Shown in pieces: positions 2,248-63,166 of a stretch of 64,000 nt of DNA; positions within the stretch are counted from its first letter, which is position 1; each line of letters begins with the position of its first letter. Where the stretch lies: contig CP141148.1 of the NCBI GenBank assembly GCA_035235625.1, positions 5,761,001 through 5,825,000 on the forward strand. The letters are read 5' to 3'. Below the pieces are notes generated by a model. The model saw only the letters and a list, made by a program, of their open reading frames with translations, searched no databases and had not been told where the DNA came from. The DNA is from Saururus chinensis (lineage: Eukaryota > Streptophyta > Magnoliopsida > Piperales > Saururaceae). The translations under genes and the position numbers were made by a program.

Positions 2248-4999
2248 ATTGCAATTGGTATTGAAGGAATGGATCCTTTTGTTGGAGAATCGTCGTCATT
2301 TGCATAATTGATGGCCTCTATTATACAAAGTAGTGGTATTCTAGAATCAAATGATGAGATAGAAGAGAAGGTTGAATGTTCATTAAAAGAAATAGAAAAA
2401 GATGAATCATGCAATGATGAAGCAAATACGGAACCTAAAAATGTATATTTTACATTGTACAAATAAAATAGTTTCAAGTTATATACTTGTATAAAGTGGT
2501 TGGAAAATGTGAGCAGTGTAAATGATTGTGGATCTTTACAACATGCATATTCTTAACAGGATAACAGAGGAAGCTAAATTCATGGGGACATTCTTAATAC
2601 CAATATTTCTTTTGCACTTAATGAAGATAAGGTAAAATTTAATTAATTATTAGTTATTGTTATGGTTGGGAATAAATGACAAGAAATATGTATTGTGCTT
2701 ATGTTATAGGTATTCCAAACACGAGAAGATTTGGAAAAGTGGGCGAGAGAAACTTGTCCGTGTTATGGCACTGTGCTCATAATACTAAACCAGTTTCGCA
2801 AAAGAAGTTGCGTGTTATTTGTGGTAAACACAGTCACCCCCCAGGTCAATTTGGAGAAGGGCGCAGATATGTAGGTCGACTAAAGGATAGAGAGAAAGAA
2901 GTTTTGAAAAATCTGTCAAGGATAGGGTTGAAACCTTGTTAGATATTGCTATCATTAAAGGAGGCAGACCCTTCAAACTGCACAACTATGAAGCAATCTA
3001 CAATGTTCGTAGTCGATTGAATTTGGCTCAACAGGAGGGTAGAACTGTGTTGCAAGAGCTCATGAAGCGAATTAATGAATCGGGGTATGTATGCTATCAT
3101 AAGAAAGATGAGGACACAAAGATAGTAGCATCTTTATGTTTTTCTCTACCAATGTCAGTGCAACTATCCAATTTGTTTCCCCATGTGTTTATGATGGATT
3201 GCACATATAAAACTAATAGATATGGTCTTCCAGTTTTATCGATCATTGGAATAACATCTACATATAAATCTTTCTTCACTTGTTTATAATTTATCTCATC
3301 ACTTTTGGAATAACATCTACCAAAAGTATTTATGACGGATAGAGAACAAGCATTAATGATTGCAATTGAAGTGGTCTTTCCTAGCTCGAAGAACATGCTT
3401 TGCTTTTGGCATATTTCTATGGGGGTAATGAAGAATTGTCGTAAAACCTCTGATACAGAGACAACTTGGGTTGATTTTTTGCATAGTTGGAATGCAATTG
3501 TATATTCAGCAACTGAGTGTGAATATGAAGAAACAATTAATAGGTTGGACATGGAGTTCAAACACTACCCGAATATCTTGAAGTATCTTCAGTCCACTTG
3601 GTTAGAGCCATACAAAAGATAATTTGTCGAAGTTTGGACGAACAACTACATGCATTTTGGCAATAAGACTACCAATAGAGTTGAGAGTATGCATGCTAAA
3701 ATCAAGATGGGATTGCAATCTTCAATGGTTAACATACTACATGCTTGGAGTAATATTGATGAAGTCATCTCTCTTCAACATATTGAGTGAGAAAATCTTT
3801 TGAGGAAAGTAGATTTAAGAGATGCCATTGCTTTCGAGATCCGTTTTATAAAGATGTAGTTGGATTAGTCTCACGAGCCGCATTAAATTTGATAGATGAA
3901 GAAAAGAAGAAAGTGGAGAACTATCCTATTATGGAGGAGCATTGCCAACATGAATTGAGAAATACATATGGTCTACCATGTAAACATCAACTGTCTAATT
4001 GGATTCTAGAAGGAAGCCTTGTTCCACTGTGTGAAATACACAACCACTGGAAACAATTGTATGTTGTAACACCAAAATCTTCTTTGATGGGGCATGAACT
4101 AATAGAAAACTTTGATAGCATTATACGCCGGTTTGAGATGGCTAATGATATTGTTAAATCTCATATATTAGTTCAATGCAAGCATATTGCAGATCTGAAA
4201 GCAACATGGACGGAGATGCCTACAATGACCTCCAGATCATGCGATATGCCAAAATAGAGTAAAAATAAGCATGAGAATTCTACAAAAAGAGATCCTTCTA
4301 GTTTTGAATATGTCATTGCCAATATTAAAGCAAAACATAGTGCTGGTATGAAGAAATTTAAGATCACAAAGAAGTCCCAAAAGAATGTCAAGGAAAAATA
4401 TTTGCCCTACATTCCTAATATTATTACCCCATATGTAAAGAATATTGTTGATGTCCCTGCAGATGGCCATTGTGGCTTCCACATAATCTCATTTCTTTTA
4501 GGAATGGATGAGGGTGGATGGAGGAAGGTACATGCTGATTTGATATATGAACTATCACTTAATAAGGCCGATTATAAAAATATTTTTCGTGGGTTGAAAG
4601 GGTTGACGAACTCTTAAGCAATTTGGCTTGCTTCCTAATGTGGGTCCAAGTAATAAATGGATGAGGATACTGGATATGGGATATGCAATTGCATCGTGCT
4701 ACAATGTTCCATTATTGATATTTTCTAAGATATTGTGCATGACTATATTCCCTTTGAGGACAACTGCTACTACAAACCACAAGATAATATGCATGGCACA
4801 TGTTGATGAATGTCATTTTGTAGCAATCTATCTAAAGATAGATGCACATGTGCCTCCTATTTCAACTATTTGGAGGAGATATCACTTATCGAATGTTGAT
4901 ACATGGGAGAAGTTATATAAAGATAGAGTGATTGATATGAGTCCATGTAGTAGTTTGTATTCTCGGTCAGCAATTTCAATTGTAGACATTGCAAAGTAG
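2248..4999 (+). pseudogene. MULE transposase with SWIM and OTU-like regions, dead (copy A)
   Basis: Mutator-like transposase remnant. An N-terminal acidic exon (2248 on) and a short exon lead to the FAR1/MULE-type DNA-binding part (VFQTREDLEKWARETC). The DDE domain follows, with FMMDCTYKTNRYGLPVL (first Asp), FMTDREQAL (second Asp), CFWHIS, and TTNRVESMHAKIK (Glu). A SWIM zinc-finger-like CQHELRNTYGLPCKHQL lies at about 3950. Then comes an OTU cysteine-protease-like region with DVPADGHCGFH (about 4450, catalytic Cys box) and ECHFVAIYL (about 4810, His box). Stops at 3287, 3620, 3788 and 4254, plus frameshifts, break it. A 63-bp segment of the DDE domain is replaced by 15 bp of filler at about 3301-3316. 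It would have encoded the element's own transposase in the nucleus; the OTU part would be a deubiquitinase-like domain. Confidence 0.88.
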
Positions 5000-5092
5000 T
5001 TGATGACCATTTTTGCAAAGGGATACATTATTTGAAACCTCATTGTTTTTATTAGACCAAATTAAGAGTTTATATTGTGGATATATTTTATA

Positions 5093-5291
5093 GGAGCCCC
5101 GGTCTTGTTTCTGGAATTGCTCTCATGGTGGGTGCCCCCTAATAGATTACATAGATTCATACGGTGGGTACCCACCAAGAGAGCAATTGCTTTTGATTGG
5201 AGCCCCGGTCTTGTTTCTGGAATTGCTCTCATGGTGGGTGCCCCCCGATAGATTACATAGATTCATACAGTGGGTGCCCACCGAGAGAGCA
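5093..5291. repeat. 106-bp minisatellite, left part (copy A)
   Basis: Two units start GGAGCCCCGGTCTTG at 5093 and 5199, exactly 106 bp apart. Each unit contains the near-palindrome GGTGGGTGCCCACC. The second unit is cut at GAGAGAGCA by the solo LTR that starts at 5292. The array resumes at 8665. Confidence 0.93.
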
Positions 5292-8200: not shown

Positions 8201-8664
8201 CTATTCCCAAAATGGAAATGGCTCAGCCTTTTTCCTTTTATAGTAGGGCTTGGGGTACACTTAATGAACTAATGGGGTGTAAATTGAATTTTGCACTAAA
8301 AATAGGTAGTTTGAAGATTTGAGCACTAATTAAATCCGATAAAATTTTAAAATTTTTTGTACGAGCTTAAGTTGATGTCTGGGGTATTTTAGTTAAAAAA
8401 TCTTAATTTTGTCGGTGGGGCCCACAAGGGGGTCCCGCGAAACTCTAATTTTTAGAAAATTAGTAAAAAATAAAAAAAATCCCAAAAATTCAGAATTGAC
8501 TAGAAACTACTTAAAACTCATAAATGTATAGTTAGTTTTACTTAAAACCTTTTGAAATCCTATTTTTTAGAAAACCACATAATTTAGATCAGAAAACGTG
8601 TAAACCACACATTAACCGATAAATAACCTTAAAATAAACTGGTTCAAAAATGAGAGTACTTACA
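5292..8664 (-). mobile_element. Solo LTR, Gypsy (Tekay/Del-like), 3.37 kb (copy A)
   Basis: Begins TGTCACGCC and ends ACTTACA on the plus strand, giving TG...CA termini. It is flanked by GAGCA (5287-5291) and GAGTA (8665-8669), a 5-bp target duplication with one change. It splits the 106-bp minisatellite. There is no gag, protease, RT or integrase sequence, so it is a solo LTR. The sense strand is minus: CTATAAAAGG (minus strand, about 8243-8234) is a good TATA box, and the last bases on that strand, GAGGCGTGACA, match the usual end of Tekay-type LTRs. It holds a 57-bp tandem array (5888-6128) and a GATCGATC-rich stretch (7440-7565). The lineage name is inferred from end motifs. Confidence 0.82.
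5888..6128 (+). repeat. 57-bp tandem array in the solo LTR (copy A)
   Basis: About four and a quarter units of a 57-bp repeat (TATCACATAAACCTGCATAA and following). Because 57 is a multiple of three, it gives a spurious repeating frame (YHINLHN...ITPFLI). Counterpart at 47955-48200. Confidence 0.88.
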
Positions 8665-9480
8665 GAGTAGTTTCTTTTGATTGGAGCCCCGGTCTTGTTT
8701 CTGGAATTGCTCTCATGGTGGGTGCCCCCCTACACGTTACATATATTCATACGGTGGGTGCCCACCAAGAGAGTGGTTATTTTTTATAGGAGCCTCGGTC
8801 TTGTTTTTGGAATTGCTCTTACGGTGGGTGCCCCCCGACTGATTACATAGATTCATATGGTAGGTGTCCACCAAGAGAGCAGTTGTCTTTTATTGGTGCC
8901 CCGATCTTATTTCTAGAATTGCTCTCACAGTGGGTGCCCCCCCCCCCCCCCCCCCCCCCCGATAGATTGCATATATTCATACTGTGGGTGACCACTGAGA
9001 GAGCAGTTGCTTTTGATTGGAGCCCCGGTCTTATTTCTGGAATTGCTCTCACAGTGGGTGCCCCCTGACAGATTACATATATTTATACAGTGGGTGGCCA
9101 CCGAGAGAGCGATTATTTTTTATAGGAGCCCCAGTCTTGTTTTTGGAATTGCTCTCACGGTGCCCCTTGAAAGATTATATAGATTCATACGGTGGGTGAC
9201 CACCGCGAGAGCAGTTGTTTTTAATTGGAGCCCCGGTCTTGTTTTTGGAATTGCTCTCATGGTGGGTGCCCACCGAGAGAACAGTTGCTTTTGATTGGAG
9301 CCCCGGTCTTGTTTCTAGAATTGTTCTTATGGTGGGTGCCCCCCGATATATTATATGGCAACATACAGTGGGTGCCCACCGAGAGAGCAGTTGCTTTTGA
9401 TTGGGGCCTTAGTCTTGTTTCTAGAATTGCTCTCACGGTAGGCACCACCGAGAGAGTAGTTTTGTTCATAGGTGCCCCTA
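8665..9480. repeat. 106-bp minisatellite, right part (copy A)
   Basis: About eight units of 70-126 bp begin GGAGCCCCGG or a variant near 8683, 8789, 8895, 9019, 9125, 9226, 9297 and 9402. Short open frames here are translations of the repeat. A run of 24 C at 8937-8960 lengthens the third unit. Confidence 0.92.
8937..8960 (+). repeat. Poly-C tract of 24
   Basis: Uninterrupted run of 24 C inside one 106-bp unit. The copy B counterpart (about 50585) reads GGGTGCCCGCTCG and has no such run, so this is a copy-A-specific expansion or an assembly or base-calling artefact. Confidence 0.9.
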
Positions 9481-17319: not shown

Positions 17320-18878
17320 TTAGTATTTCTCATCATTTGAAACCAACAGTAAATAACATCTTCTAATAACATTAGGTGCATCTTCGTCCTGCTCTTCTTC
17401 GTCTTGTTCTTCATCTGAATTAAAATCACTTTGATAAGAAGAATTTGAGAGGTCCTCCTCACCAGTCTGCTCCACAGCCACTTTTATCTCTTCTTTCTGC
17501 TTCTCTTTAAGGTCAATTTCCAAATCTTCCATGGCTTCTTCCAGACATCCAGACATATTTGGGCCTCTACAAACTCTTGCTCTTGTTCTATCATCTTCTG
17601 TAACGCCCGCCCATTTTAGGATAATATAATATTAATGATCCTGTCCGACGTGCGAAATTAGTACACACGAACCGGACTGACGGGCGTTAATCGTGAAACG
17701 ATCGTATGCTCAATGTAGAATACGTCGGAGTAATTGCACAGCCAAGAAAATAAAAACATATTGACAAAAAGTTTATAACATAAGTTTAATATACATATCA
17801 AAATTTACTGTACATGGAGCCAGTAGTTATAAAAACATGATTATCCTGACACATCATGTCTTTACACATTGGTCACATATATAATTACATTATGTAGAAA
17901 ACACACAACTACTTGAAAAACTTTTCTTCTTTCCCTTCCTCCATCGTCGCAACATCTGCAAGGGCTGGGGGTGCATGAGTATATTTATACTCAGTAGGTT
18001 TGTTTAAAAATCTAAAATAAATGCTAAGCAAAAACATCTTTTAAAATCAAATCAAACAAATTCACAAAATCAATCAAATCCACAAGCCGCGATACCCAAC
18101 GGCCTACCTCCGCGCTCATGGGACAACGGAGGCCACTAAGGGAAGGAGTTTTCCCATGATGCTCCACCCTGTGCGCGCCACTAGCCGATCATTTTTCTCG
18201 GCGGGCATCAAAACAGTGTACGAAACCACAACACTATGTAGTACGTACAAAATCAATCAATATACGTAGCAAAATTGTCACATAATTCAAGAGAAAATCC
18301 ATTCATCAGTTAAAACAAGTATCATACTTATACTTAAATCAAATACTTCAAGAAAGATGGACTCAAATCAGCAAAGCAGTTATTTAGAGTTTAAAACACC
18401 CTACCTTAGCCTTGAATATAAAATTCGTCAATATAAAGACTCCAGAAGGTGAAAATAACCCCACCACAGTGTTCAGCACGTTCGCTTTAGCAGAGAATGC
18501 CTTTTGAACGGGTAGAATAGGGCTTGAAATGACTAAGAAACAGCAAAAAGAAGAAAAGGGGAAGATTAAGGAAGAGGCACGTTTTCGAGGTCTTAGAGGC
18601 GTCGCCTTGAGAAAATAACACTTCCGGTGCGTAGAGCACCCTTGAATTAGTAGGAAACGGGTCTTGGAACGTGAAAATCGGACTTAAAATGGGTCAGAAA
18701 TGAAGAAAGCAGTGAGAGGGGAAATCTGCAGAAAATAATGGCCGGAATGGGTTTAAATAGGGGAGGAGGAGGAGTTTTCCGGCGGGCACCGCCGCCGGAA
18801 CCGGTGGGCGCCCGCCGGCGCCGCCACAAAAACGGGCGGCGCCCACTGGCGCCGCCGCGCGCGTTGTGGGCGCGCGGC

Positions 18879-18962
18879 GTGACGAACGCGCGTTCGTCAC
18901 GCGCGCGGTGACGAACGCGCGTTCGTCACGCGCGCGCGCGGTGACGAACGCGCGTTCGTCAC
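18879..18962. repeat. CpG-rich palindrome array inside the solo LTR
   Basis: Three copies of a perfect 22-bp palindrome (GTGACGAACGC joined to its reverse complement) at 18879-18900, 18908-18929 and 18941-18962, spaced 29 and 33 bp. They sit in a very GC-rich block (about 18770-19075) unlike the AT-rich surroundings. The Arg/Ala-rich frames here are not genes. Confidence 0.93.
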
Positions 18963-33140: not shown

Positions 33141-33150
33141 CTATATAAGC
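33141..33150 (+). promoter_or_regulatory. TATA box of the double-NAC gene
   Basis: CTATATAAGC lies 57 bp upstream of the ATG at 33198. That would place transcription start near 33175 and give a short leader. A second TATAAA-like site (CATATAAAGC, about 33156) lies slightly closer. Confidence 0.55.
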
Positions 33151-33197
33151 ATTCCATATAAAGCAACATAAGTCACTGGAGAGGAAGTAAGGAGAAG

Positions 33198-36055
33198 ATG
33201 GCATACCATGCAGGGTTCCGATTTGATCCATCAGACGCCATGCTCGTCCGGGAGCTGCTCAAAGTTTGTCAAGTTAAAGGCGCGATTCCCTGCTATCCAA
33301 TCGTCTCCGACAACGTTTACGCTGGAGAACCATGGCTTCTGACTGGTAATATATCACTCATGCCAGCTACGTAATGCATGTCTTCTTTTTCCCTGGCCTC
33401 ATGTTCTTAACTTCTTTTCTGATTAAGGTGCCGGAAGGGACAAGTGTTCAAGAATTGGGGGTGCTCGGTACTATTTCAGCACCAGAAATAAGGGGTATGG
33501 AAGAAGACCAGACCGGCGGGCGGGGAAGGGCCACTGGAGTGCAACCCAAAAGCCGAAGAGCATCTCCGACGGCGATGGTCAAGCCGAGAAGAGAGCTTTT
33601 GTTTATTTCACCGACGGTGAGGGCGATGGTTCCAGCAAGAAGAAGGGCAACAGAACCCACTGGATCATGGATGAATATACGCTAATTACAAGGAAAGACG
33701 ATCCAAAGGTAACCTATATTTGTTAGTCGTATACATTGATGTGCTACCCTTTGTATTAACTTGGTTTGTTCGTCTTTCAATTCAAGACTTCATCTTTTCT
33801 CTACGTATTTTTGCTTCTGTATGTTTTTGCCAGGCCTCTGCTCTCAAAATATATATATGTTCTCTTCTAACCCCAGCTTGCGTTGCTTATGCCATAGTTT
33901 ATTAGTGCCTTAATCATTCATTAATCTGTTTGCCTATATATATGTATTTATATATAACCTCTTCTTATAAAGTTGCATTGCCTAATTTTATTTTCTTGAT
34001 ATGAGAAGTAGCAGTAATTAATTATGATAATGAAAAGATAATAATAGTTATTAGCTGAGATAACTACATAGTTATGATTAGGAAGGTTTCTTTCCCTTTC
34101 TATTACAGAAGAATCACAATTTCATACATGGGTCACGTGCCAAGTTTACACTATAGTTTTATGAAAGTTTCTTTCCCTATTAATATTAGGAAAGTTTCTT
34201 TTCCTTTCTATTCAAGAAGAATCATACGTGGGTCACGTGCCGAGTTAGGTTTAGTGCTAAATAATATGTTCATACGTGGGTCACGTGCCAAGTTAGGTTT
34301 AGTGCTAAATAATATGTTCACCTTTGAATAATTTTGTTTCGCTTCTTTCAACTTGATTGCAATAGAAATAACATTGCAATCAACAATTGAATTTTGTTTA
34401 ATCTTCAAGTACGTAACAAAAGATGTTTGACGGATTCTTGGGCCGAAACCCTTGTGCAGTTTCAGACATATGCCATATGCAAAATCAAGTGCAGACCAGG
34501 GAAAGATGAGGACGAGGATGATGATCTGATAATACTTCCTGATGACGATGGTGAGCAAAACCTGCTTCCCTCGCACTATGCATATCTGCCGCTGGGGTAT
34601 AGGTTTAAGCCCACCCCATATGAACTCCTTCGATGTTATCTCCAAAGAAAGGTTGATGATCTTCCACTCCCATCTGATGCTGTTGAAGATAAAAGAGTTT
34701 ACGACATGGAGCCATGGGCCCTCACTGGTAGCTATTTCATTCATCTTCTTGAAACATCTGCTATTAGATTAAGCAATCAGTCTTCATTGGGTGTTTTATT
34801 CTTTACCAAATGTGTATGATAATTGACTGTTGCATTGTTCTCTAATTAGGGGCTGATGGTCCTAATGGGAGGATGGACGAACGGTATTATTTCTCTAGCA
34901 GAATTCAGATGGCAAGGGAAGGCAATGGCAAAAATGCAAGCAGAAAAGCTGGCAATGGGTTCTATAAGATCACAGGGAAAAAGCAGGTGCATGACAGAGA
35001 TGGTAGATTAATTGGCGAGATAGGGGCATTCAAATACCACCGAAACGTTGATGGACGTGTTCAAAAGACTAATTGGATCATGCAGGAATTCACTCTCTCA
35101 TCTCGTGATAATAATGTGAGTTCATACGAAAATTTATATATGAAGAGTTTAACTAACCTATACTTGGTTGAATCAATAGGTCTTGTGGCCGTATTTGTAA
35201 ATCTCTTTCAGCTAACTTATTCTAAACTTTTGATTCCTGTAGGTGGGAAAATTTGAGGAAGTAGTTCTGTGTAAGATAAGACATCGGCAGGTAGGCCCCG
35301 ATGCAAGAGAAGTAGGATTTGAAGAAGCCCTTGCCATGGTTGAAGAGTTGCCCTATGAACGAGGAGAACTAGGCATGTTGGAAAACCATGCAACTGTCAA
35401 TGGCGATCAATTAGGGCCCGATGTAAGAGAAATAGGATTTGAAGAAGCCCTTGCCATGGTTGAAGAGTTGACCAATGAACGAGGAGAACTAGACATGTTG
35501 GAAAACCCTTCAATTGCCCATGGAGATCACTTCCCTGCATTGGAAGAAGCTTCTCACACCATCTCTATGGACTTGACGGCCATCACAGAACAAGGGGAAC
35601 TAAGCATGTTGGAAAATCCTACTGCAAATGGAGATCAATTAGGGCCCGATGTAAGAGAAATAGGATTTGAAGAAGCCCTTGCCATGGTTGAAGAGTTGAC
35701 CAATGAACGAGGAGAACTAGCCATGTTGGAAAACCTTGCAACTGCCCATGGAGATCATTTACCTGCATTGGAAGAAGCATCTCACACTACCATTGCTGAA
35801 GACTTACAGACCATCACTAAACAAGCGGAACTGGACATTATGGAAATTCCTGCAATTGACTATGGAGATCAATTACCTGAAACTGAAGAAGCTTATTTAG
35901 AGAAGTTGTTTGAATACGTAGAAAATAATGACATACTCTCAATTATGGTAGTAGATATTGAAGAAGACACTGCGATTGTCCATGGAGATCAAGTCTCAGA
36001 AGATGATGACATATCCTCGTCAATAAAAATGTTGCCTGACATGCCAGTAGTGTGA
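33198..36055 (+). CDS. Tandem double-NAC-domain protein, five exons, 591 residues
   Basis: Exons 33198-33345, 33428-33708, 34460-34727, 34850-35115 and 35243-36055, all with GT-AG introns and one open frame of 1776 bases. NAC domain 1 (residues 1 to about 155): GFRFDPSDAMLV, YAGEPWLLTG, RYYFSTRNKGYGRRP, THWIMDEYTL, TYAICKIK. An acidic linker (DEDEDDDLIILPDDD) follows. NAC domain 2 (about 186-334): LGYRFKPTPYELLRCYL, DMEPWALTG, ERYYFSSR, FYKITGKKQ, TNWIMQEFTL, VVLCKIR. The C-terminus (339-591) holds acidic repeats starting GPD.RE.GFEEALAMVEEL at 339, 379 and 455, probably the regulatory part. NAC proteins are plant nuclear transcription factors that bind CACG-type sites as dimers. Both domains diverge from consensus: DPSD for HPTDEE, and HWSAT or FYKIT for WKAT. 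Splice sites are predicted; the acceptor at 34460 could instead lie 6 bases downstream. Confidence 0.87.
34079..34322 (+). repeat. Intronic direct repeats with three CACGTG sites
   Basis: Inside intron 2 of the double-NAC gene. A unit of about 49 bp (CATACGTGGGTCACGTGCC, then AGTTAGGTTTAGTGCTAAAT) occurs twice in tandem (about 34224-34321). A related partial copy lies at 34122-34145, and GGAAAGTTTCTTTTCCTTTC-type sequence occurs three times. CACGTG lies at 34134, 34234 and 34282. G-boxes bind bZIP and bHLH factors, and the CACG core also suits NAC proteins. Confidence 0.8.
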
Positions 36056-37070
36056 GAGTTTGTATTTGACTAGTAGTGATGTAAATATTTTCTTAGTTTT
36101 GGTTCAAGACATGTCTTTTTTTCTGGGGTAAGGCTTTAACATCCCCCCCAGACACCTTTTTATATATCCCTCATATAAATGAACTAGTAGGGGTCCAAGC
36201 AAACCCCCCCACCTTATAAGATGTTTTTTTTTTCTAAAAAAAAAAGGCACAACACTGCCTATTTCATGATCAATTGGTTTCCAACTACATGCTATTATGT
36301 TTTGGTCTAAAGTAAATACATATATAAAAGCTTCATTAATCTTTTTTGTGACTAATTGATGAACACTAACATGTTATTAATGACCATCTTATCATTAAGT
36401 AACAATAGATATGTGATTTTTGTTCTTCTTAGTTTTTTATTGTTGTCAATTAATATTATTACCTTTATAGTTATTATAATTTCATTACTGTTATTTACAG
36501 TTAGTGTTATCTTTAATTACAACAACTACCACTGCTAAAAGTTGCTCTAATTATTATTAGACGACTTTTAAAGTGAAACTTTAGTGATGACTTATAGATA
36601 AGTAGTTTAAACATTATCAGTATCAGTCCATACTGCCAATCCCAATTGATTGAAATGTGATAATTATATATGAAGCCAGTGATGATAATTAATATCCATA
36701 AAATTATAATTTAACGCTTGATATTTAAGAACTAAACAAGGGTTAAATACATTTAAAGACATACTAGAACAAAATCGCACATAACTCTAGCCCTATTATA
36801 TTAATCACATAAATATAAATACTTTAAGAAAAATATATTACTTAATTTGGTGTAGACCGACCAACTTGATTCTGATTTTATGAATTGTTAATCTTTTCTG
36901 AAGTACACAATATATAGAGAAAATCTAAACTAATGTTAATAGAACCAGAAGACAGTTTTTAATCTAATTCTAACTAAATAAGGAATATAACTATTAGGAA
37001 TTTGAAAGGGAATCAAATCTAACCTAAAATAGGATTCTAATATATTCTATTATAATTTAGGGGCACAACA
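36056..37070. other. 3' flank of the double-NAC gene
   Basis: AT-rich; no gene. It probably contains the 3' UTR, but no strong AATAAA signal is seen just after the stop. Repeated at 37957-38914. Confidence 0.5.
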
Positions 37071-37265
37071 TAGTCCTTGACATGCCCCATATTATTAACT
37101 CCAATTGGAAGAATATTAATTTTTATTGAATGGTGAAAGAAATGAAAATAAGCTTATGATACTCTTTTTTAAGTACCATATCACTTAAATTGAACAAAAT
37201 GAAGTTATTAATATGAAACTAACTTTTTCGCCAAATGAAGCTATTAATTTAGGACGAAGAGAGCA
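37071..37265 (-). mobile_element. Stowaway-type MITE in first tandem copy
   Basis: About 195 bp between TAGTCCTTGACATGCCCCAT and GGACGAAGAGAGCA. The inner ends ATTATTAACTCCAATTGG and CCAAATGAAGCTATTAATTT are inverted matches. Same family as 38915-39122 and 39336-39539. Confidence 0.75.
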
Positions 37266-37326
37266 CAAGGTTAGGGAAGAAGTACTTTTCTGGCACGAAT
37301 TTTATATTTTTAGATAAAAATACCCT

Positions 37327-37956
37327 ATGGAAGAAGCTTCTCACACCATCTCTATAGACTTGCCGGCCATCACAGAATAAGGGAAACTAAGCATGTTGGA
37401 AAACCCTACTGCAAATGGAGATCAATTAGGGCCCGATGTAAGAGGAATAGGATTTGAAGAAGCCCTTGCCATGGTTGAAGAGTTGACCAATGAACGAGGA
37501 GAACTAGCCATGTTGGAAAACCCTGCAATTGCCCATGGAGATCATTTACCTGCATTGGAAGAAGCATCTCACACTACCATCTGGACAGACTTGCCGACCA
37601 TCAGCAAACAAGGGGAAGTAGGCATGTTGGAAAACCCTGCATCTGCAAATGGAGATCAATTCCCTGCATCGGGAGGAGCATCTCACACTACGATTGCTGA
37701 AGACTTACAGACTATCACTAAACAAGCGGAACTAGACATTATGGAAATTCCTGCAATTGACTGTGGAGATCAATTGCTTGAAACTGAAGAAGCTTATTTA
37801 GAGAAGTTGTTTGAATACGTAGAAAATAATGACATACTCTCAATAATGGCAATAGAAATTGAAGAAGACACTGCGATTTCCCATGGAGATCAAGTCTCAG
37901 AAGATGATGGCATATCCTCATCAATAAAAGTGTTGCCTGACGTGCCAGTAATGTGA
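37327..37956 (+). pseudogene. Orphan 3'-exon fragment of the double-NAC gene
   Basis: Duplicated C-terminal repeat region only, with no NAC domain. In frame from 37327 it reads MEEASHTISIDLPAITE and then a stop at 37378 (CAA to TAA against the parent gene). A frame of 187 codons reopens at 37393 and ends at 37956 in the same place as the parent. It holds one repeat unit that the parent lacks (WTDLPTISKQGEVGMLENPA and following), so the parent lost it or this copy gained it. It has no promoter of its own. It could only be expressed as an alternative last exon by read-through splicing, for which no acceptor is evident. Confidence 0.85.
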
Positions 37957-39184
37957 GAATTTGTATTTGACTAGTAGTGATGTAAATATTTTCTTAGTTT
38001 TGGTTCATGACGTGTCTTCTTTTCTGAAGTAAGGCTTTATCGTCCCCCCATATACCTTTTTATATATCCCTTATATTAATGAGCTAGTAAAAACCCCACC
38101 TTATAAGATGTATTTTTTCTAAAAAAAAAGGCACAATACTGCCTATTTCATGATCAATTGGTTTCCAACTACATGCTATTATGTTTTGGTCTAAAGTAAA
38201 TACATATATATAAGCTTCATTAATCTTTTTTGTGACTAATTGATGAACGCCAACATGTAATCAATGACTATATTATCATTAAGTAACAATAAATACGTGA
38301 TTTTTGTTATTCTTAGTTTTTTGTTATTGTCAATTAATATGATTACCTTCATAGTTATTATAATTTCGTTACTGTTATTTACAACTAGTGTTATCTTTAA
38401 TTACAGCAACTACCACAGCTAGAAGTTGCTCCAATTATTATTAGACAACTTTTAAAGTGAAACTGTAGTGATGACATATAGATAAGTAATCCAAACATTA
38501 TCAGTCCATACCGCCAATCCCAATATATGAAATTAATATCTATAAAATTATAATTTAACACTTGATATTTAATAACTAAACAAGGGTTAAATACATTTAA
38601 AGACACACTAGAACAAAATCGCACATAACTCTTGCCCTATTTTATTAATTACATAAATATAAATACTTTAGGAAAAATATATTACTTAATTTGGTGTAGA
38701 CAGACCAAGATGGTTTTGATTTTCTAAAATGTTAATCTCCTCTGAAGTACACAATATATAGATAAAATCTAAACTAATGTTAATAGAATTAGGAGATAGT
38801 CTTTAATCTAATTCTAACTAAATAAGGAATATAATTATTATGAATTGGAAAGGGAATCAAATCTAGCCTAAAATAAGTATCTAATCTAATCTATTCTAAT
38901 TTAGGGGCACAACATACTCCCTAATATGTTCCATATTATTAACTCCAATTGGAAGAATAGTAATTTTCATTGAATGACAAAACACACATCTAAAAGAAAT
39001 GAAAATAGGCTTATGATACTCTTTTTTAAGTACCCTATCACTTAAATTGAACAAAATGAAGCTAGTAATATAGAACTAACTTTTTCGCTGAATAAAGCTA
39101 TTAATTTAGGACGAAGAGAGTACAAGGATAGGGAAGAAGTACTTTTCTGGCACAAATTCTAGATTTTTATATAAAAATACCCTA
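37328..39184 (+). repeat. Tandem duplication, second copy
   Basis: Direct repeat of 35541-37327. The junction at 37320-37330 reads AAATACCCTATGGAAGAAGC, and the far end reads AAATACCCTAGGG, so ACCCTA is shared at the breakpoints. It carries an extra 41-codon repeat unit and a premature stop. Confidence 0.95.
38915..39122 (-). mobile_element. Stowaway-type MITE in second tandem copy
   Basis: 208 bp including TA on both sides: TACTCCCTAATATG at the left and GACGAAGAGAGTA at the right. A CTCCCT-type end and TA target duplication indicate Stowaway (Tc1/mariner). It moved here by the tandem duplication, not by transposition. Confidence 0.8.
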
Positions 39185-47160: not shown

Positions 47161-47360
47161 AGGAGCCCCGGTCTTGTTTCTGGAATTGTTCTCACGGTGG
47201 GTGCCCCTTAATAGATTACATAGATTCATATGGTAGGTGCCCACCAAGAGAGCAATTGCTTTTGATTGGAGCCCCGGTATTGTTTCTGGAATTGCTCTCA
47301 TGGTGGGTGCCCCCTGACAGATTACATAGATTCTTACAGTAGGTGCCCACCGAGAGAGCA
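47161..47360. repeat. 106-bp minisatellite, left part (copy B)
   Basis: Two units starting GGAGCCCCGGTCTTG and GGAGCCCCGGTATTG at 47162 and 47268, cut by the solo LTR at 47361. Confidence 0.92.
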
Positions 47361-50313
47361 TGTCATGCCCTGGCACTGCCTAACCCAAGCCGAACCCGGT
47401 CCAAGGGCCGAACTAATGCATGGGGGCGACGACTTGAAAATGATTGAGGAAAATAGCGGAAGACTTGTGCCCCAACTACGGACAATCTAAAATACGGAGT
47501 CTACGCACTACTTTGAGCAAGAGTAAATAAGTAGAATCAAAATAGTTAAACTCTAAATTAAACCATAATCTTAAACCGACATACTGATAATTCATAGCCA
47601 CACACTTGGCTCCAAAACAAGTTTCAAAGAAACTAAAGACATAGTATATCACAAATCTAAAACGAGGATCATCCACAAGGTTCTAACAGCTGAACAAGAT
47701 GAATGAAGAAACATGCAAAACTAGGAGGCTCCACAACTACTCCCAAGCTCTCTCCGACCTTTCCTCATATAGAGGATCCTGTCCATCTGCATGTCACGCC
47801 ACGCAACCCTAAAACAAAACAAGAAAGTGCGGTGAGTATAAAAACACAATAAAGGTTTTGAATATAACTATAATCACCAGAAAACACAATGGCATGACAA
47901 TGAAGCAAATCAAATATAAGATTAACATGCTATACCACGTTCTAATCTTATATTCATATCACATAAATTTGCATAATATTGTCTTAATCACACCATTCCT
48001 GATCATACATTCATATCACATAAACCTGCATAATAGTGTCTCAATCACACCATTTCTGATTATGCATTTGTATCGCATAAACCTGCATAATAGTGTCTCA
48101 ATTACACCATTTCTGATTATACATTTATATCACATGAACCTGCATAATAGTGTCTCAATCACACCATTTCTGATTATGCATTCATATCACATAAACCTCA
48201 TTCACCCAGCACGACAAATGTGTCAAACACATGATACAGAATCATGCATAACATTCATCATCAACATGCATTAATATAAATGGTGAATGCCTCTATCAAG
48301 GAGTAAACACAAGCATTGCCATACAGGCAGGACATGATCAAGGCCACGAAGGCAAGACACGGTCAAATTTCCACACAGGAAATGAAAAAGAGTTGGGGTT
48401 GTCAATCCCTAAAGCTGCTCGCCCTAGACGATCCTGGCCAAGGATGTCCCATTCTCACATAGAGAATCTAGAGCAGGGGTGTTCACCCAGGGACATCTCC
48501 TGCGGAGGGGAGAGCCCAAATTCCCACACAGGGAACCCTAGAACACGTGGTAGTGGGTGCACACGGCATACCACTCTAGATTCTCAAAGTCCAAATGACA
48601 CTCATATTAATAATCTCAAATCCGCAAGACCAAGTACACAACTCATCCCCTCACAATTTAATTTCTCTAGACTTAACTCGGGGAGTATACACGTTCCACA
48701 CAAGAACTTAAATTGAAAACATGTCCCTTTGGACCAACCAAGATTTGATTAATTCACCGAGTGGTTAATCCGGCACACAATCTCAAGCATTTCATACAAT
48801 CGATTAAATTCCGGTTAAACAACGGTAAAACTTCGTCAATGAACACTGATCTATGATGCATGATAACATGATACATCTGTGAGCAAGACCTATGTGGGTT
48901 CCAACACATGGAACATGCTCCCAATCAGTCCCCTCATGCATCATAATTAAGGCATAATTAACTACAATGTCATAGTAAATTCCCCATACGTGTGTGTTCA
49001 TGCATATCTAAGCACATACCCAATGCTTGACATAAACTTATAAGACAATTTACATATGCTTGAACACATTCAAAACAACGATTCCTAGCTGAAATCAAAA
49101 CAAAATCCACCATAAGGATTCAATCCATCCATGTGAAATCGAACATTCACTCCCACAATCATGATTTTACCATTCATAAAGCCATAACATGATCACATCC
49201 ATTACCCATAAGCCATCCTCATTATGAGAGAACACATCTCACCATTTTTCCACATAATATCCCTGCTGGAAACATATTCTATTCATAAGAATACCAACAC
49301 TCTCAAATTTAAGGTACTTCAATATCAACATGTATAATTCTCAACATAATATGATGTCACAAGATAACACATAAACATAATCAATACACTTTCATCATCA
49401 ATTCTACACCTCCAGTAGTCTAATTTCATCATAATACACCTCCCATAACCATTAGAAACATTAAATGGAGCAAAATATTGAAATGTGCATAAGTTTCAAA
49501 AATAGCAAAAACTGTCGTGAAGCCGTTCGATTGCCCTGCAAGGCCGTTTGATCGGCTATACTGGAAATATGTCAAAAATGTAGTGTTGCCGATTGATCGC
49601 CTTAGTAAGCTGTTCGATCGCCAACAAAGCAGTTTTGACCTTCTTCATTTCGAAATTCAAAACCGAAACACCATGAGAACACCTTCAAATCTTCATCCAT
49701 GGTACCAAACATTATCAAAAATTCATAAAACCTTCCAGAACACTAATCTATACCATTCTAAAACAAAACCCTAAGAAATTGGAACAAGAAATTAACATTT
49801 ATTAATCCCACCATTAAAGCACTAAATCAAACAAATCCATTCCAAATAAAACATTAAAATCGAGATTTTACTATAAGAAAACTGAGATTTGAAGACCCAT
49901 TACCTTGTCACTTAGTTAATGGGGTATAAATTGAATTTTGGGCTAAAAAAAGGTATTTTAAACATTTGAGCACTAATTAAATCCGATAAAATTCTAAATT
50001 TTTTTGTATGAGCTTAAGTTGATGTCTGGGGTATTTTGGTTAAAAAATCTTAATTTTGTTGAAGGGACCCATAGGGGGGTCCCGCCAAACCTTAATTTTT
50101 GGAAAATTAGTAAAAAATCAAAAAAATCCCAAAAATTCAGAATTGACTAAAAACTACTTAAAACTCATAAATGTATAGTTAGTTTTGCTTAAAACCTTTA
50201 GAAATCCTATTTATTTTAGAAAACCACTGAATTTAGATCAGAAAATGCGTAAACCACACATTAACCGATAAATAACCTTAAAATAAAGCGGTTAAAAAAT
50301 GAGAGTCCTTATA
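47361..50313 (-). mobile_element. Solo LTR, Gypsy (Tekay/Del-like), internally deleted (copy B)
   Basis: Counterpart of 5292-8664. It starts TGTCATGCC and ends CCTTATA (terminal C to T). The target duplication is perfect here: GAGCA at 47356-47360 and 50314-50318. A 410-bp deletion near 49912 removes the predicted LTR TATA region (copy A about 7857-8270). Confidence 0.82.
47955..48200 (+). repeat. 57-bp tandem array in the solo LTR (copy B)
   Basis: Same array as 5888-6128 with scattered substitutions and the same number of units. Confidence 0.87.
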
Positions 50314-51150
50314 GAGCAGTTGCTTTTGATTGGAGCCCCGGTCTTCTTTCTGGAATTGCTCTCACAGTGGGTGCCCCCCGACAGGTTACATATATTAATA
50401 CAGTGGGTGCCCACCAAGAGAGTGGTTATTTTTTATAGGAGCCCCGGTCTTGTTTTTGGAATTGCTCTTACGGTGGGTGCCCCCCGACCGATTACATAGA
50501 TTCATAAGGTAGGTGTCCACCAAGAGAACAATTGTCTTTTATTGGAGCCCCGATCTTGTTTCTAGAATTGCTCTCACGGTGGGTGCCCGCTCGATAGATT
50601 GCATATATTCATACGGTTGGTGACCACCGAGAGAGTAGTTGCTTTTGATTGGAGCCCCGGTCTTGTTTCTGGAATAGCTCTCATGGTGGGTGCCCCCCGA
50701 CAGATTACATATATTTATACGGTGGGTGGCCACCGAGAGAGTGGTTGTTTTTTATAGGAGCCCCAGTCTTGTTTTTGGAATTGTTCTCACGGTGGGTGCC
50801 CCCCGAAAGATTATATAGACTCATACGGTGGGTGACCACCGAGAGAGCAGTTGCTTTTAATTGGAGCCCCTGTCTTGTTTTTGGAATTGCTCTCGTAGTG
50901 GGTGCCCCCTGACAAATTACATAGATTCATACGGTGGGTGCCCACCGAGAGAGCAGTCGCTTTTAATTGGAGCCCCGGTCTTGTTTCTAGAATTGTTCTT
51001 ATGGTGGGTGCCCCCCGATATATTACATGGCAACATACATTGGGTACCCACCGAGAGAGCAGTTGCTTTTGATTGGGGCCCCAGTCTTGTTTCTAGAATT
51101 GCTCTCACGGTGGGCGCCACCGAGAGAGTAGTTTTGTTTATAGGAGCCCC
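50314..51150. repeat. 106-bp minisatellite, right part (copy B)
   Basis: About eight units following the solo LTR, starting near 50332, 50438, 50544, 50658, 50756, 50861, 50967 and 51078. The unit matching the poly-C unit of copy A has normal length. Confidence 0.92.
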
Positions 51151-52528: not shown

Positions 52529-54559
52529 CTATAGCTTGGCTTGCAGAATTGGCTTGATCATACAAAAGCTCATCCAATGCAGATTGAGTAGTCTCCTTAA
52601 TGCTTTCTAAATCTCCATACTTATCAAGTATAGTCAATGTCCTTTGCAAAAAAATTGTTGCGTTTTGTTTGTGGACAGCCTACAATAAAAAATAATACAT
52701 AGTTCAACTCACAATATAAATTTATCATAATACTATTGCAAGTCAATTGACAAAATTATTACCCAATCATCTTCAGCGTGCTCATCTTTTGGATCATCCA
52801 CTACACCAATCCGCCTATTTGGATTCTGAACATGGTTGTGGGATATTGTTTGATACCACTCCATGTAATTATCTGCACAATCCCATGGTTTGGCCATAAG
52901 TTCCCCACATTGTTTGGAAGCTAACTGATGGTGATGGCTATTCTTCCAAATGTTCACGTTTCCATCATACGAGATTTTATAACCTTTTGCATTGGCACTC
53001 CTAGTAGATTGTTTAGCAATTGGTTGAAGAGGTAATGGAGGTATTGTTTGGACATAACCAAACTACCTAAGAACTCGGGCAAGGTTATAAGCTTCCCTAA
53101 TTTGACAACAAAAGAGGACACCACTGTACAAACCATTATCCGGTAGATTGTTATCGCATCTTTCCTTGTGATAAGGATCCCAATGGACCTATTAATAAAA
53201 AAAAAGGTGTAAACATAATATAGATATAAAGCCCACATATATTTTGGGTTTGTAATTACCTTTCGATAATCCATATGATCCAATGCCTCCCTAAAATCTA
53301 TTAGTTTGGATAATGAATATTGTGGATGCTCCCCTTTCCAACGGAATGCATGAGGTTTTCCTTCCTTAAACATCACATTAGGATGTGGTCTCTCTATTTT
53401 GAAATGCTCATATGACCAAGCCTGCATGAAAGTAAATAATTACTTAATGTTTCTACATATATGCCAAGAAAGATAAATAGAATTATAAATAAATGATTCC
53501 TTGTACCTCTAATAATGTAAGATAATTGCTGATTTGCTGCACGTCATATCTTGATGTAACTCCCAATTGACGATACAAATATGCAAGTGTAGTCGCACCC
53601 TATGCATACTTAGAGATGCCTTCCAAATCCATCAGCAAATTTAAGTATTTTGCAAGTACAATGTTTCTGGTGCAACCTAACAAAAATAAATTATATGCCC
53701 TCCTTGTACACTCTATATCCTCCTTTGTTGCTTCCTCGGGCAAATTCTTAAATTTGGAGCACAACCAATTCAAGCGAAAGCCTCTCCCACCACACTTGTT
53801 CAACTCTTGTTCTATTATGGTTTGTTCGATCCCTAGGGCATTAACACATAGTTCAACCAAATCATCACCTTTAACCTCGGGGGTTATCACTACATTCCCT
53901 TTTACTGGAATCCCAATTAATTGGTGAACATCTTCAAGTGTGATTGTCATCTCTCCGTATGGCATGTCAAAGGTATTTGTCTAAGGATGCCACCTTTCTA
54001 CCAAAGCAGATATCCACATTCTATTTGATGTCTTATATGAAATATAAGACAAGGGATATAGACCACAATTCTTTACCAAGGATAAAATAATATTACCCTC
54101 TATATCCCATTTATCGAGGACTTGACATTGTTGCAGACATCTCAAAGGGAGGCGATACTGTTAAAAAAATAATAATAAGTACAATATTTATTACCTATAT
54201 GGAATCTAAAAAATTAAGTAACATTCATTTACCTCATCATGCCAGACTTTGTGTGCTATGTGTGTTCTATAGGTACTTAGTACACTCATTTCAAGTGGAC
54301 CTCCTAAAAATGAGGGACCTTCTTCATCTTCTTCATAAATATCATGTTCTTGCCCTTCACCTTCAACATTTGGTTCATCATCACTATCCCCTTCGTCACG
54401 GGATGCATCTTCATGAATACCTCCTTCAATACAATCATATTGACCTTCATTTTCAATCGGGCCTTCATTTTCACCTTGTATTGAATTCCACAATTGTGTT
54501 CCAACTAATTTAGTAGTCCATCTTGCCCCATTAGAAGCGGTAGGATGATCTCTTGGCAT
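52529..54559 (-). pseudogene. Plant mobile domain (MAIN-like) gene, near-complete but with stops (copy B)
   Basis: Minus-strand exons: 54559-54233 (acidic N-terminus ending THIAHKVWHDE), 54157-53507 (PMD core: RMWISALVERWHP, MPYGEMTITLEDVHQLIGIP, RRAYNLFLLGC), about 53422-53260 (AWSYEHFKIERPHPN, FRWKGEHPQYS), then RVLR*FGYVQTIPPLP and NIWKNSHHHQLASKQCGE with DNYMEWYQTI, and a last exon ending at 52529. GEMTITLEDV..L.GIP and VLR.FGYVQ.IP are hallmarks of the plant mobile domain (PF10536), found in MAIN/MAIL proteins and in many transposons. Three stops (WHP*TN, KYA*GA, VLR*FG) make it a pseudogene. Its place inside the MULE fits a transposon-borne PMD gene. Confidence 0.83.
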
Positions 54560-61200: not shown

Positions 61201-63166
61201 TTAAGGTGGTATAAGAAAGTGATCAACAATATCATCCCGAATCCTATCCCGGACATGAGCCATATATCGATCATCCTTCACCTCTAGAGGCCCGACATTC
61301 ATATCTTCTTGTGTTATGTTGCCCATGTCCTTGTTCTCCCATCTCCTAAACAATGCATCAACAAGATCACGATCATTACTAGCCCCTTTTTGCTCTTTAA
61401 GGAAATTGTGAATGGGCAATGAGACAATCACTATAGGACATTTCTTTTCAATGTCACTCTTTATTATATTCCTAAGAGACAAATGAAGATAATTGAACTT
61501 CTCCTTCCTCCCCCTTGGCCCTCGTTGCCTGTATCCTAGAACATGATACTTGGTGCCTTTATAAGGCCCAAGAAAGCCTTTCATGTTAAGGTACCCTGCA
61601 TCAACCACATAATTCTTGCCCTCGGGAAATTTAGGAAAGTCAGCTTCTATGTTGTTGATAGCATAATTGAACACCTTTGAGTCGTGGGCCAAACCCTTCC
61701 ATCTAGCTTCGACAAAGGTGAACCTCAAGCTAAAGGTGCACACTGCCATGATAGTTTGGCTCACCTTCCTTGTTTTCCCCCTGTATGCTTGTTGTTGCAC
61801 TGCAGTTATCACTGCCTCCATGTGTGTGCCATGTATCAATTGCTTCAATGCAATTCTTTAACCATGAGTAGTACTTATGTTTGGTCCTAATGTGTAGGAC
61901 TATCATTGGGTAACTATTGACCTGTCTCACTCACTCACCTGATCCGAAATTTGTAGGCGGGTAATTGATAAATGGGTAATAGGTAAAATAAGTGGGTAAT
62001 TTTACCTGCCCATTTATTACGTGGGTAGGGTATGGGTACCTTCTTATCCATACCCGCTACCCCTTACCCGAATCGTATAGAAAGACATAGTTGCATATGT
62101 TGCCCAAGGAGAATCTCTTGCATATGAAACATTTTGTATTTTCATTGTCATACATTAGATATCCTTTTAAGAAATATATATAAACTTATAATGCAAACTT
62201 ATGATAGAGAACACGGTCAATCTTCTATGTCTTCTCACATTATGCTTGTTGCATAAAGTGTGTATCTTGAAGAGTAAATATAATTTTTACCCTCGATGAA
62301 TCAGACTAGGAGAGTGAATGATGATCAAGGGCATTTGAGTTAAGTAAGCAATAGGAATCTTATTTTTTGGTTTTTGGTGTCATGTTCTTTGGTTTTGATA
62401 AGTACCCAAATTTTAATTTGTTATAGTTATACCGGAAGAGTAAGGTTTGTATATGTAATGAGATTCGTCATGTATCTTGAAGTAATTTGGTATGATGAGC
62501 AAGTGACTTTAGAGGTAATGAAATTACTTTCAAGTCTTGATCTTTTTTTATATAAGTTTATATAAGCTGTTAGATCCTTATTATGTTATTTTTTGTTTGT
62601 ACGAACTATGAGGTTTGCGTATGCATTATTGCCCATGTCCTTTTTGGATTGAACTTATGATACATTAGATAGGCTTTTAAAAAATATAAATTATTTACAA
62701 TAATTGATTTTGTATTGTTTGTTATTATTTTTTGTTTATTGATCAGTTGGTTGTTTACTTGTTACCCACCCATTTACCCAATGGGCAATGGGCAATGGGT
62801 AGGGTAGGGAAATCTTTTCTGGAAGTAGTATTGATGTGGGTAAAACCTTACCCGACCCATACCCTACCCATCGACACCCTTACTAATGTGTGAACAAGTT
62901 TGCTCTAGTGGGACTACGTGTTTGATCATGTTCTTTGCAATCCAAGAGAGCATGTAACATTTTATTAAAGTGTTAGTTCACAGTTTCAGTTGAGTGTGAC
63001 ATCAAGTGACCTATCTACCTTTCTCCATTTCTGTGGCCTAAGATTTGAAGGAAACTACCCATTTGCTCTTCAACAGTCACATGTCTTGTGTCTTTAAAAG
63101 CAAACGAGCCCTCACCTTATAGCATAGTTACATAAAGGTGGCCTTGTTCATTCGGCACATATCATA
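61201..63166 (-). pseudogene. PIF/Harbinger transposase, dead, interrupted by hAT (copy B)
   Basis: Better preserved than copy A. A 215-codon frame (61848-61201) contains GTHMEAVITA (part of the first Asp region, AID|GTHM, after a one-base shift), RWKGLAHDSKVFNYAI, VVDAGYLNMKGFLGPY (second Asp), YRQRGPRGRKEKFNYLHLSL and a 3' end in HFLIPP. These are diagnostic of DDE_Tnp_4 (HARBI1/ALP1) nucleases of PIF/Harbinger elements. The RNIIKSDIEKKCPIV stretch, where the family has RN.IER.FG..K.R, is altered, so the third catalytic residue is doubtful. The N-terminal part lies at about 63166-62900 beyond the hAT element. Confidence 0.87.
61895..62882. mobile_element. Non-autonomous hAT element inside Harbinger gene (copy B)
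   Basis: 988-bp counterpart with a perfect 8-bp duplication CTAATGTG (61887-61894 and 62883-62890). Removing it and one duplication rejoins the Harbinger reading region. No coding capacity. Confidence 0.92.

Follow-up and report, generated by a model that had tools for sequence, protein, structure and literature searches.

A tandem two-NAC-domain gene in Saururus chinensis with uneven divergence of its two domains

The NAC locus described here is best read as one protein-coding gene, whose product is a NAC transcription factor carrying two NAC domains with an acidic linker and an acidic repeat tail; on this reading the gene arose by one duplication or fusion, and its two domains have uneven roles (probability about 0.7). 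The locus is the only one of its kind found by tblastn in the window, a stretch of 64,000 nucleotides (C9:5761001-5825000) from a genome of 11 contigs and 516,460,831 bases, and it lies at 33198-36055 on the + strand. The observed parts of this reading are the gene structure, the family membership, the sister relationship of the two domains and, in one pair of array copies, constraint on the NAC part when it is considered as a unit. The strongest new point is a lineage-wide asymmetry between domains 1 and 2.

The five exons (Table 1) join into one frame of 591 codons followed by a stop. All four introns have GT and AG ends, and their phases are 1, 0, 1 and 0. Together with the two PF02365 stretches described below, this bears out the intact two-NAC gene that had been proposed in a sequence-only reading of the window. 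The GT donor of exon 1 is also found in the array copies L027, L028, L030 and L031. For exon 3 there are two possible acceptors, at 34460 (591 aa) and 34466 (589 aa); the former is favoured because the relatives on contigs C10 and C11 read EFQT and LQK at this site. An additional TATA-box-like match lies at 33157. A spliced, intron-less copy was not found in the genome with a query made of joined exons 1-3 and the start of exon 4, which covers three of the four junctions. In intron 2, a 48-bp unit is present approximately twice at 34222-34320, with CACGTG in each unit. This motif presumably resembles cores bound by NAC and bZIP factors, and the units are possible candidates for self-regulation of the gene.

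Table 1. Features of the two-NAC gene and its tail duplicate (window coordinates)
Feature	Coordinates	Strand	Description
TATA-box-like sequence, putative promoter	33142..33148	+	starts 56 bp 5' of the ATG; sequence match alone
Exon 1	33198..33345	+	ATG, domain 1 subdomains A-B, to EPWLLT|G, phase 1
Exon 2	33428..33708	+	domain 1 subdomains C-D; GHWSATQK replaces WKATG; ends RKDDPK, phase 0
Exon 3 (fused)	34460..34727	+	domain 1 subdomain E, 30-aa acidic linker, domain 2 subdomains A-B, to EPWALT|G, phase 1
Exon 4	34850..35115	+	domain 2 subdomains C-D; GFYKITGKK; ends SSRDNN, phase 0
Exon 5	35243..36055	+	domain 2 subdomain E, then 255-aa acidic C-terminal tail with repeats, stop
Tail duplicate	37328..39184	+	tandem copy of later exon 5 and 3' flank, without NAC domain

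In a Pfam search, the only family matched by the protein (589-aa reading) is PF02365, at 7e-47 overall and in two stretches, as the sequence-only reading had expected of a profile search. When the domains are given singly, domain 1 scores 78.8 bits and domain 2 scores 87.8 bits. Both are above the gathering cut-off of 27, which places them in the NAC (NAM/ATAF/CUC) family. The gene carries two NAC domains in one open frame, which defines a two-NAC protein. Both domains align over their full length with ANAC019 and have the NAC layout of subdomains A-E with a variable C-terminal tail. Aligned to each other by BLASTP, they are alike at 55 of 162 positions (34%). Domain 1 takes in exons 1 and 2 and reaches 36 bases into exon 3; domain 2 starts after the linker in exon 3, continues through exon 4 and ends 45 bases into exon 5. 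Exon 3 begins with subdomain E of domain 1 (FQTYAICKIKCR, aa 144-155), and exon 5 with that of domain 2 (VGKFEEVVLCKIRHR, aa 322-336), both as placed by eye. The earlier assignment of exons 1-2 to one domain and exons 3-4 to the other is thus right in the number of domains and wrong in placing the domain borders at exon borders, since exon 3 is fused. The linker has 30 residues, 11 of which are D or E. The tail has 255 residues (64 D/E, 9 K/R) and contains three copies of FEEALAMVEEL.

The gene belongs to a multi-copy family, which is not visible from the window by itself: related loci are present elsewhere in the same genome. Their counts are lower bounds, taken from the best candidates of protein and DNA genome searches and excluding pieces that consist of exon 5 only. 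An array on C9, at approximately 5.684-5.892 Mb, contains at least eight loci with NAC-coding exons, including the window gene. The window gene is one of three intact loci; the others are L028 (591 aa), which matches it exactly over codons 1-337, and L031 (629 aa). The other five of the eight listed loci are truncated or contain a stop. L027, which is on the opposite strand and nearly identical to the window gene, is interrupted by a stop at codon 55. Exon 2 is missing from L030, exon 1 and the greater part of exon 2 from L025, and L026 and L029 keep the last part alone. The array loses copies easily, given the stop in L027 and the missing exons in these four.

On C10, L037 is intact (447 aa), with exons laid out as in the window gene and with PF02365 matched in two stretches. 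The frame of L035 is cut by a stop at codon 330, within subdomain E, exon 1 of L040 is not found in its 6-kb locus, and L036, L038, L039 and L041 are pieces or are damaged. On C11, L042 (G000:C11:8659500-8669000) has a complete domain 1 and the fused exon 3 but an interrupted exon 4. Approximately 3 kb of other sequence splits this exon, and the matching later part resumes near L042:7140. Damaged fragments occur on C5 (L032 and L033), on C3 (L034) and elsewhere on C9 (L043). As far as each is complete, the window gene, L035, L037 and L042 agree in the fused exon 3 and in their exon borders. The family lineages covered are three (C9, C10 and C11), all from one genome. Searches of viral and of prokaryote contigs found no relatives, which is unsurprising for a plant gene.

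In three phylogenies, drawn from a sample of 33 NAC loci of this genome and two PDB chains, the first domains of the three lineages group together, the second domains group together, and the two groups are most closely related to one another. In tree 1, which has 21 other NAC rows (19 from this genome and the two PDB chains), bootstrap/SH-aLRT support is 97/91 for the first domains, 96/91 for the second domains and 99/98 for both together. The corresponding values are 99/93, 98/92 and 98/97 in tree 2, which has 35 other rows and includes the divergent ones. They are 99/94, 100/96 and 100/97 in tree 3, which uses a simpler model with 29 other rows and leaves out the partial C11 domain 2 and six divergent rows. 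Long branches meet in tree 1, and the two further samplings agree with it. As to the nearest single-domain NAC, a tree constrained to place can_L060 with the two-NAC group is not rejected (p-AU 0.455, tree 1 rows); with can_L060 and can_L067 both placed there, p-AU is 0.0755 (tree 3 rows). Within the sampled rows, domains 1 and 2 are sisters by these trees, the point that the phylogeny proposed alongside the sequence-only reading was meant to check. Sister groups that span C9, C10 and C11 indicate a single doubling, older than the split of the three lineages. An origin from one ancestral NAC gene by duplication or fusion, first claimed from the repeated intron phases, is upheld mainly by the trees and by the fused exon 3 in three lineages; the phases do not serve as its proof. 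Repeated phases alone would not prove duplication because the single-domain NAC genes of this genome that were read also seem to break after the PWxLPG stretch, judged by appearance and not from derived splice sites or phases.

NAC domains of the ANAC019/SNAC1 type dimerise between chains. We take R19 and E26 to form an inter-chain salt bridge, and K79, R85, R88, K96, K123 and K126 presumably sit at the DNA. Residues are numbered by ANAC019, in which L14, T23, E26 and Y31 fall on those letters; these four are named as dimer sites in the available parts of two papers (PMC11121595, PMC8106581). E26 is lost in all three first domains (replaced by M, V and A) and is present in all three second domains and in 30 of 32 other NAC rows. 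R19 is kept in all three first domains and in two of the three second domains; the other rows have R in 26 of 32 cases and K in five. The C11 copy lacks R19 in domain 2 and has it in domain 1. K96 and G99 of the WKATG motif are replaced by S and Q in every first domain, and the second domains of C9 and C10 keep both. Among the other rows, K96 is found in 30 of 35 (five lack it) and G99 in 33 of 35; WKATG is typical of the family, not required. The window gene has WSATQ in domain 1 and YKITG in domain 2, and C10 has WKMTG in domain 2. The C11 domain 2 is cut by the exon 4 insertion, and its residues from the WKATG stretch onward are not relied upon. R88 is kept in all six domains, and R85 is replaced by N in the second domains of C9 and C10. 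Domain 1 of the window gene also has T23 replaced by S and Y31 by L, and domain 2 keeps R19, T23, E26 and Y31. Both domains had been said to carry diverged DNA-contact motifs; this is correct, with the divergence unevenly spread between them.

The first domains are 50-54% identical to each other and nevertheless keep WSA(T/S)Q constant, which suggests that domain 1 is specialised rather than decaying. As predicted from these residues, the two domains would suit a pair of domain 1 with domain 2, and domain 2 of the window gene could equally form dimers with a second domain of another chain. The uneven divergence fits a division of labour and would permit, without requiring it, the built-in dimer suggested in the sequence-only reading, here as an asymmetric one.

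Constraint on the NAC part is seen between the window gene and L031. Over codons 1-337 there are six silent and no replacing changes, with approximately 219 silent and 792 replacing sites available, and a neutral draw would give none of six replacing with P of about 1e-4 (by arithmetic). One of the six silent changes is in domain 1 (P 0.22) and five are in the linker and domain 2 (P 0.0004), so the constraint is seen for the NAC part as a whole and not for domain 1 by itself. Substitution counts thus show the NAC part of this pair, as a whole, to be under constraint. In the linker and domain 2, two truncated copies exceed the neutral expectation in silent change, with six silent and five replacing changes (L030, P 0.016) and four silent and three replacing changes (L025, P 0.041); the stop-bearing L027 has two silent and three replacing (P 0.29). 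L026 and L029 are left out of this argument; by reading, their exon 4 parts have five replacing and two silent changes and five of each, respectively. The tail of L028 has 15 replacing and eight silent changes (P 0.10), which is compatible with neutrality.

In the C10 lineage, dN/dS between L035 and L037 is 0.215 over 335 codons. The values that involve L040 are 0.42 (with L035) and 0.78 (with L037), which would fit a decaying L040. Between the window gene and the C10 gene L037, silent sites are saturated (pS 0.76) and dN is 0.445. Against C11, dN/dS is 0.445 for the window gene and 0.21 for C10. In the young copies L027 (0.52% and 0.55%) and L031 (0.52% and 0.65%), exons and introns have diverged to a similar extent, and this comparison is uninformative on selection for young L027, L028 and L031. 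Older pieces lean towards conserved exons, with exon and intron divergences of 1.6% and 2.5% (L030), 3.7% and 5.7% (L029) and 3.2% and 5.2% (L032). The divergence of L025 exon 2 and L026 exon 3 was not used, as these extend beyond the homology ends.

The surroundings of the gene are themselves duplicated. Positions 1-22950 and 42034-64000 form a tandem segmental duplication, in which long pieces are 89-96% identical with insertions between them, and the NAC gene lies in the intervening stretch. The array copies L028 and L030 are approximately 52.5 and 52.7 kb to either side of it. The window's own duplication was considered as the source of two NAC genes and is ruled out, since NAC-coding sequence occurs nowhere else in the window by tblastn. 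The only other strong tblastn match, at 37.3-38.0 kb, is the tail duplicate, in which 35706-37327 is 87.7% identical to 37607-39184 and 35541-35879 is 91.2% identical to 37328-37666. This tail duplication leaves a NAC-less open fragment of the tail downstream of the gene (37381-37953), which has no Pfam match. A minisatellite with a unit of approximately 106 bp, of the GGAGCCCCGGTCTTG... type, is found at 5086-5291, 8664-9455, 47162-47360 and 50313-51118, and its copy number differs between the duplicated segments. Pieces of MULE transposase, plant mobile domain (PMD) and DDE_Tnp_4 lie at 3314-3619, 53603-53980 and 61204-61857, above the Pfam cut-off (10 ORFs tested), and weaker pieces lie at 2891-3286 and 52957-53439. 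An ARAGORN call of tRNA-Ser (cga) at 18855-18942, within a G+C-rich CG-repeat stretch, is probably spurious.

Under the favoured reading, a three-exon NAC gene would have been duplicated once, or two neighbouring copies fused, to give the hybrid exon 3, before the C9, C10 and C11 lineages parted. Domain 2, which retains E26 and also, in the C9 and C10 lineages, the WKxTG lysine, would be the main DNA-reading and dimer-forming unit. Domain 1, which kept R19, lost E26 and changed WKATG to WSATQ, may be a specialised partner that either docks on domain 2 of the same chain or contacts a different DNA half-site. The acidic tail would be a regulatory region.

Two of the alternatives deny that there is one working gene. 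A wrong join of two adjacent single-domain NAC genes would account for the exon pattern of each half, which is like that of single-domain NAC genes, but it is highly improbable in view of exon 3. The frame of this exon is open from 34391 and free of stops up to the exon end, and its first in-frame ATG (in VYDMEPW) is reached only past subdomain A of domain 2. A separate gene that started in that frame would therefore lack a complete domain 2. The fused exon is moreover kept in the C10 and C11 relatives, and chance is excluded because relatives with domains 50-56% identical to those of the window gene have their exons laid out in the same way. It is also improbable, to a lesser degree, that the array is dead or silent and that its open frames are leftovers of very recent duplication with no present function. 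The damage in five of the eight listed loci points in this direction, as do the similar exon and intron divergences of L027 and L031, a tail that is free to change, and the match of three of 10 neighbouring ORFs tested to transposase or plant mobile domain models above the cut-off. Against it stand the absence of replacing changes beside six silent ones between the window gene and L031, and frames that are intact in two lineages saturated at silent sites against each other.

The remaining alternatives concern how the domains pair and how they were joined. The protein may be an obligate asymmetric single-chain NAC dimer, in which the domains would fit each other better than themselves and the WSA(T/S)Q edge would read a different half-site, giving a non-palindromic NAC target. 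The better mutual fit would follow from domain 1 having lost E26 and kept R19 and domain 2 having kept E26 (and, in C11, lost R19); on these residues we regard the proposal as tentative and rather unlikely. A stronger candidate, if still somewhat short of even odds, is that the domains do not pair within the chain, that two proteins would pair by their second domains, and that domain 1 would be a free second DNA- or protein-binding unit. R19, T23, E26 and Y31, all kept in domain 2 of the window gene, make a symmetric dimer look intact, whereas in C11 the distribution of R19 would leave the R19-E26 contact to a pair of domain 1 with domain 2 alone, in a copy that is broken in exon 4. As to origin, the chances are evenly balanced between duplication of exons within one gene and fusion of two adjacent tandem NAC genes in which a stop and an intergenic stretch were lost. 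In exon 3, the presumed third exon of one unit runs on into the presumed first exon of the following unit, as such a fusion would produce, but the sister domains and the intron pattern come out alike under internal duplication.

Two-NAC proteins are a known kind. According to the portions of the surveys available, no fewer than 77 of 160 species have them; the two domains lie in the N-terminal part, and a few proteins have as many as four (PMC7147800). Reported cases include eight TaNAC sequences in wheat (PMC6402696), two SiNAC in foxtail millet (PMC3654982), BdNAC040 and BdNAC097 in Brachypodium (PMC4376915) and PmNAC098 in Prunus mume (PMC6209978), and two tandem NAC domains are mentioned in excerpts of three reviews or introductions (PMC10651149, PMC5054944, PMC12175250). 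The TaNAC, SiNAC, BdNAC040, BdNAC097 and PmNAC098 proteins are like the window gene in having two NAC domains, a likeness drawn from partial published descriptions and not from sequence. In the accessible parts of these five survey papers (PMC7147800, PMC6402696, PMC4376915, PMC3654982, PMC6209978), we found no discussion of a recurring intron phase pattern, of domains that are sisters or of contact residues lost unevenly. A literature search for the NAC domain as an intramolecular dimer found no paper. Two further reports were rejected as two-domain cases on the sections available: that on Ottawa 3 apple (PMC13082862) appears to mean two proteins and not two domains, and that on Gillenia (PMC8558331) concerns a gene array.

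The NAC domains of ANAC019 and SNAC1 (PDB 1ut4, 3swm and 3ulx) are sequence relatives of both window domains, at 36-40% identity each. Matches to 1ut4 and 3ulx are 1.1e-12 and 3.4e-11 for domain 1 and 6.8e-18 and 1.7e-15 for domain 2. Unlike the window gene, ANAC019 and SNAC1 have a single domain and keep WKATG, E26 and R19, and NAC proteins of this type are described, in the available text, as dimers between chains (PMC11121595, PMC8106581). WRKY plant transcription factors often carry their DNA-binding domain twice, according to part of one of these papers (PMC11121595). Two-WRKY proteins belong to a different, zinc-binding family and parallel the window gene in design alone.

What is new here is the uneven divergence of two copies that has been kept, in a kind of protein already known. 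In the parts of the survey literature available, two-NAC proteins have been counted rather than studied. This one genome contains three old two-NAC lineages with sister domains and an uneven loss of contact residues. These lineages therefore provide a concrete test of whether a family of dimeric transcription factors has evolved covalently linked asymmetric dimers. Such NAC dimers, if real, would be a natural counterpart of engineered single-chain dimers.
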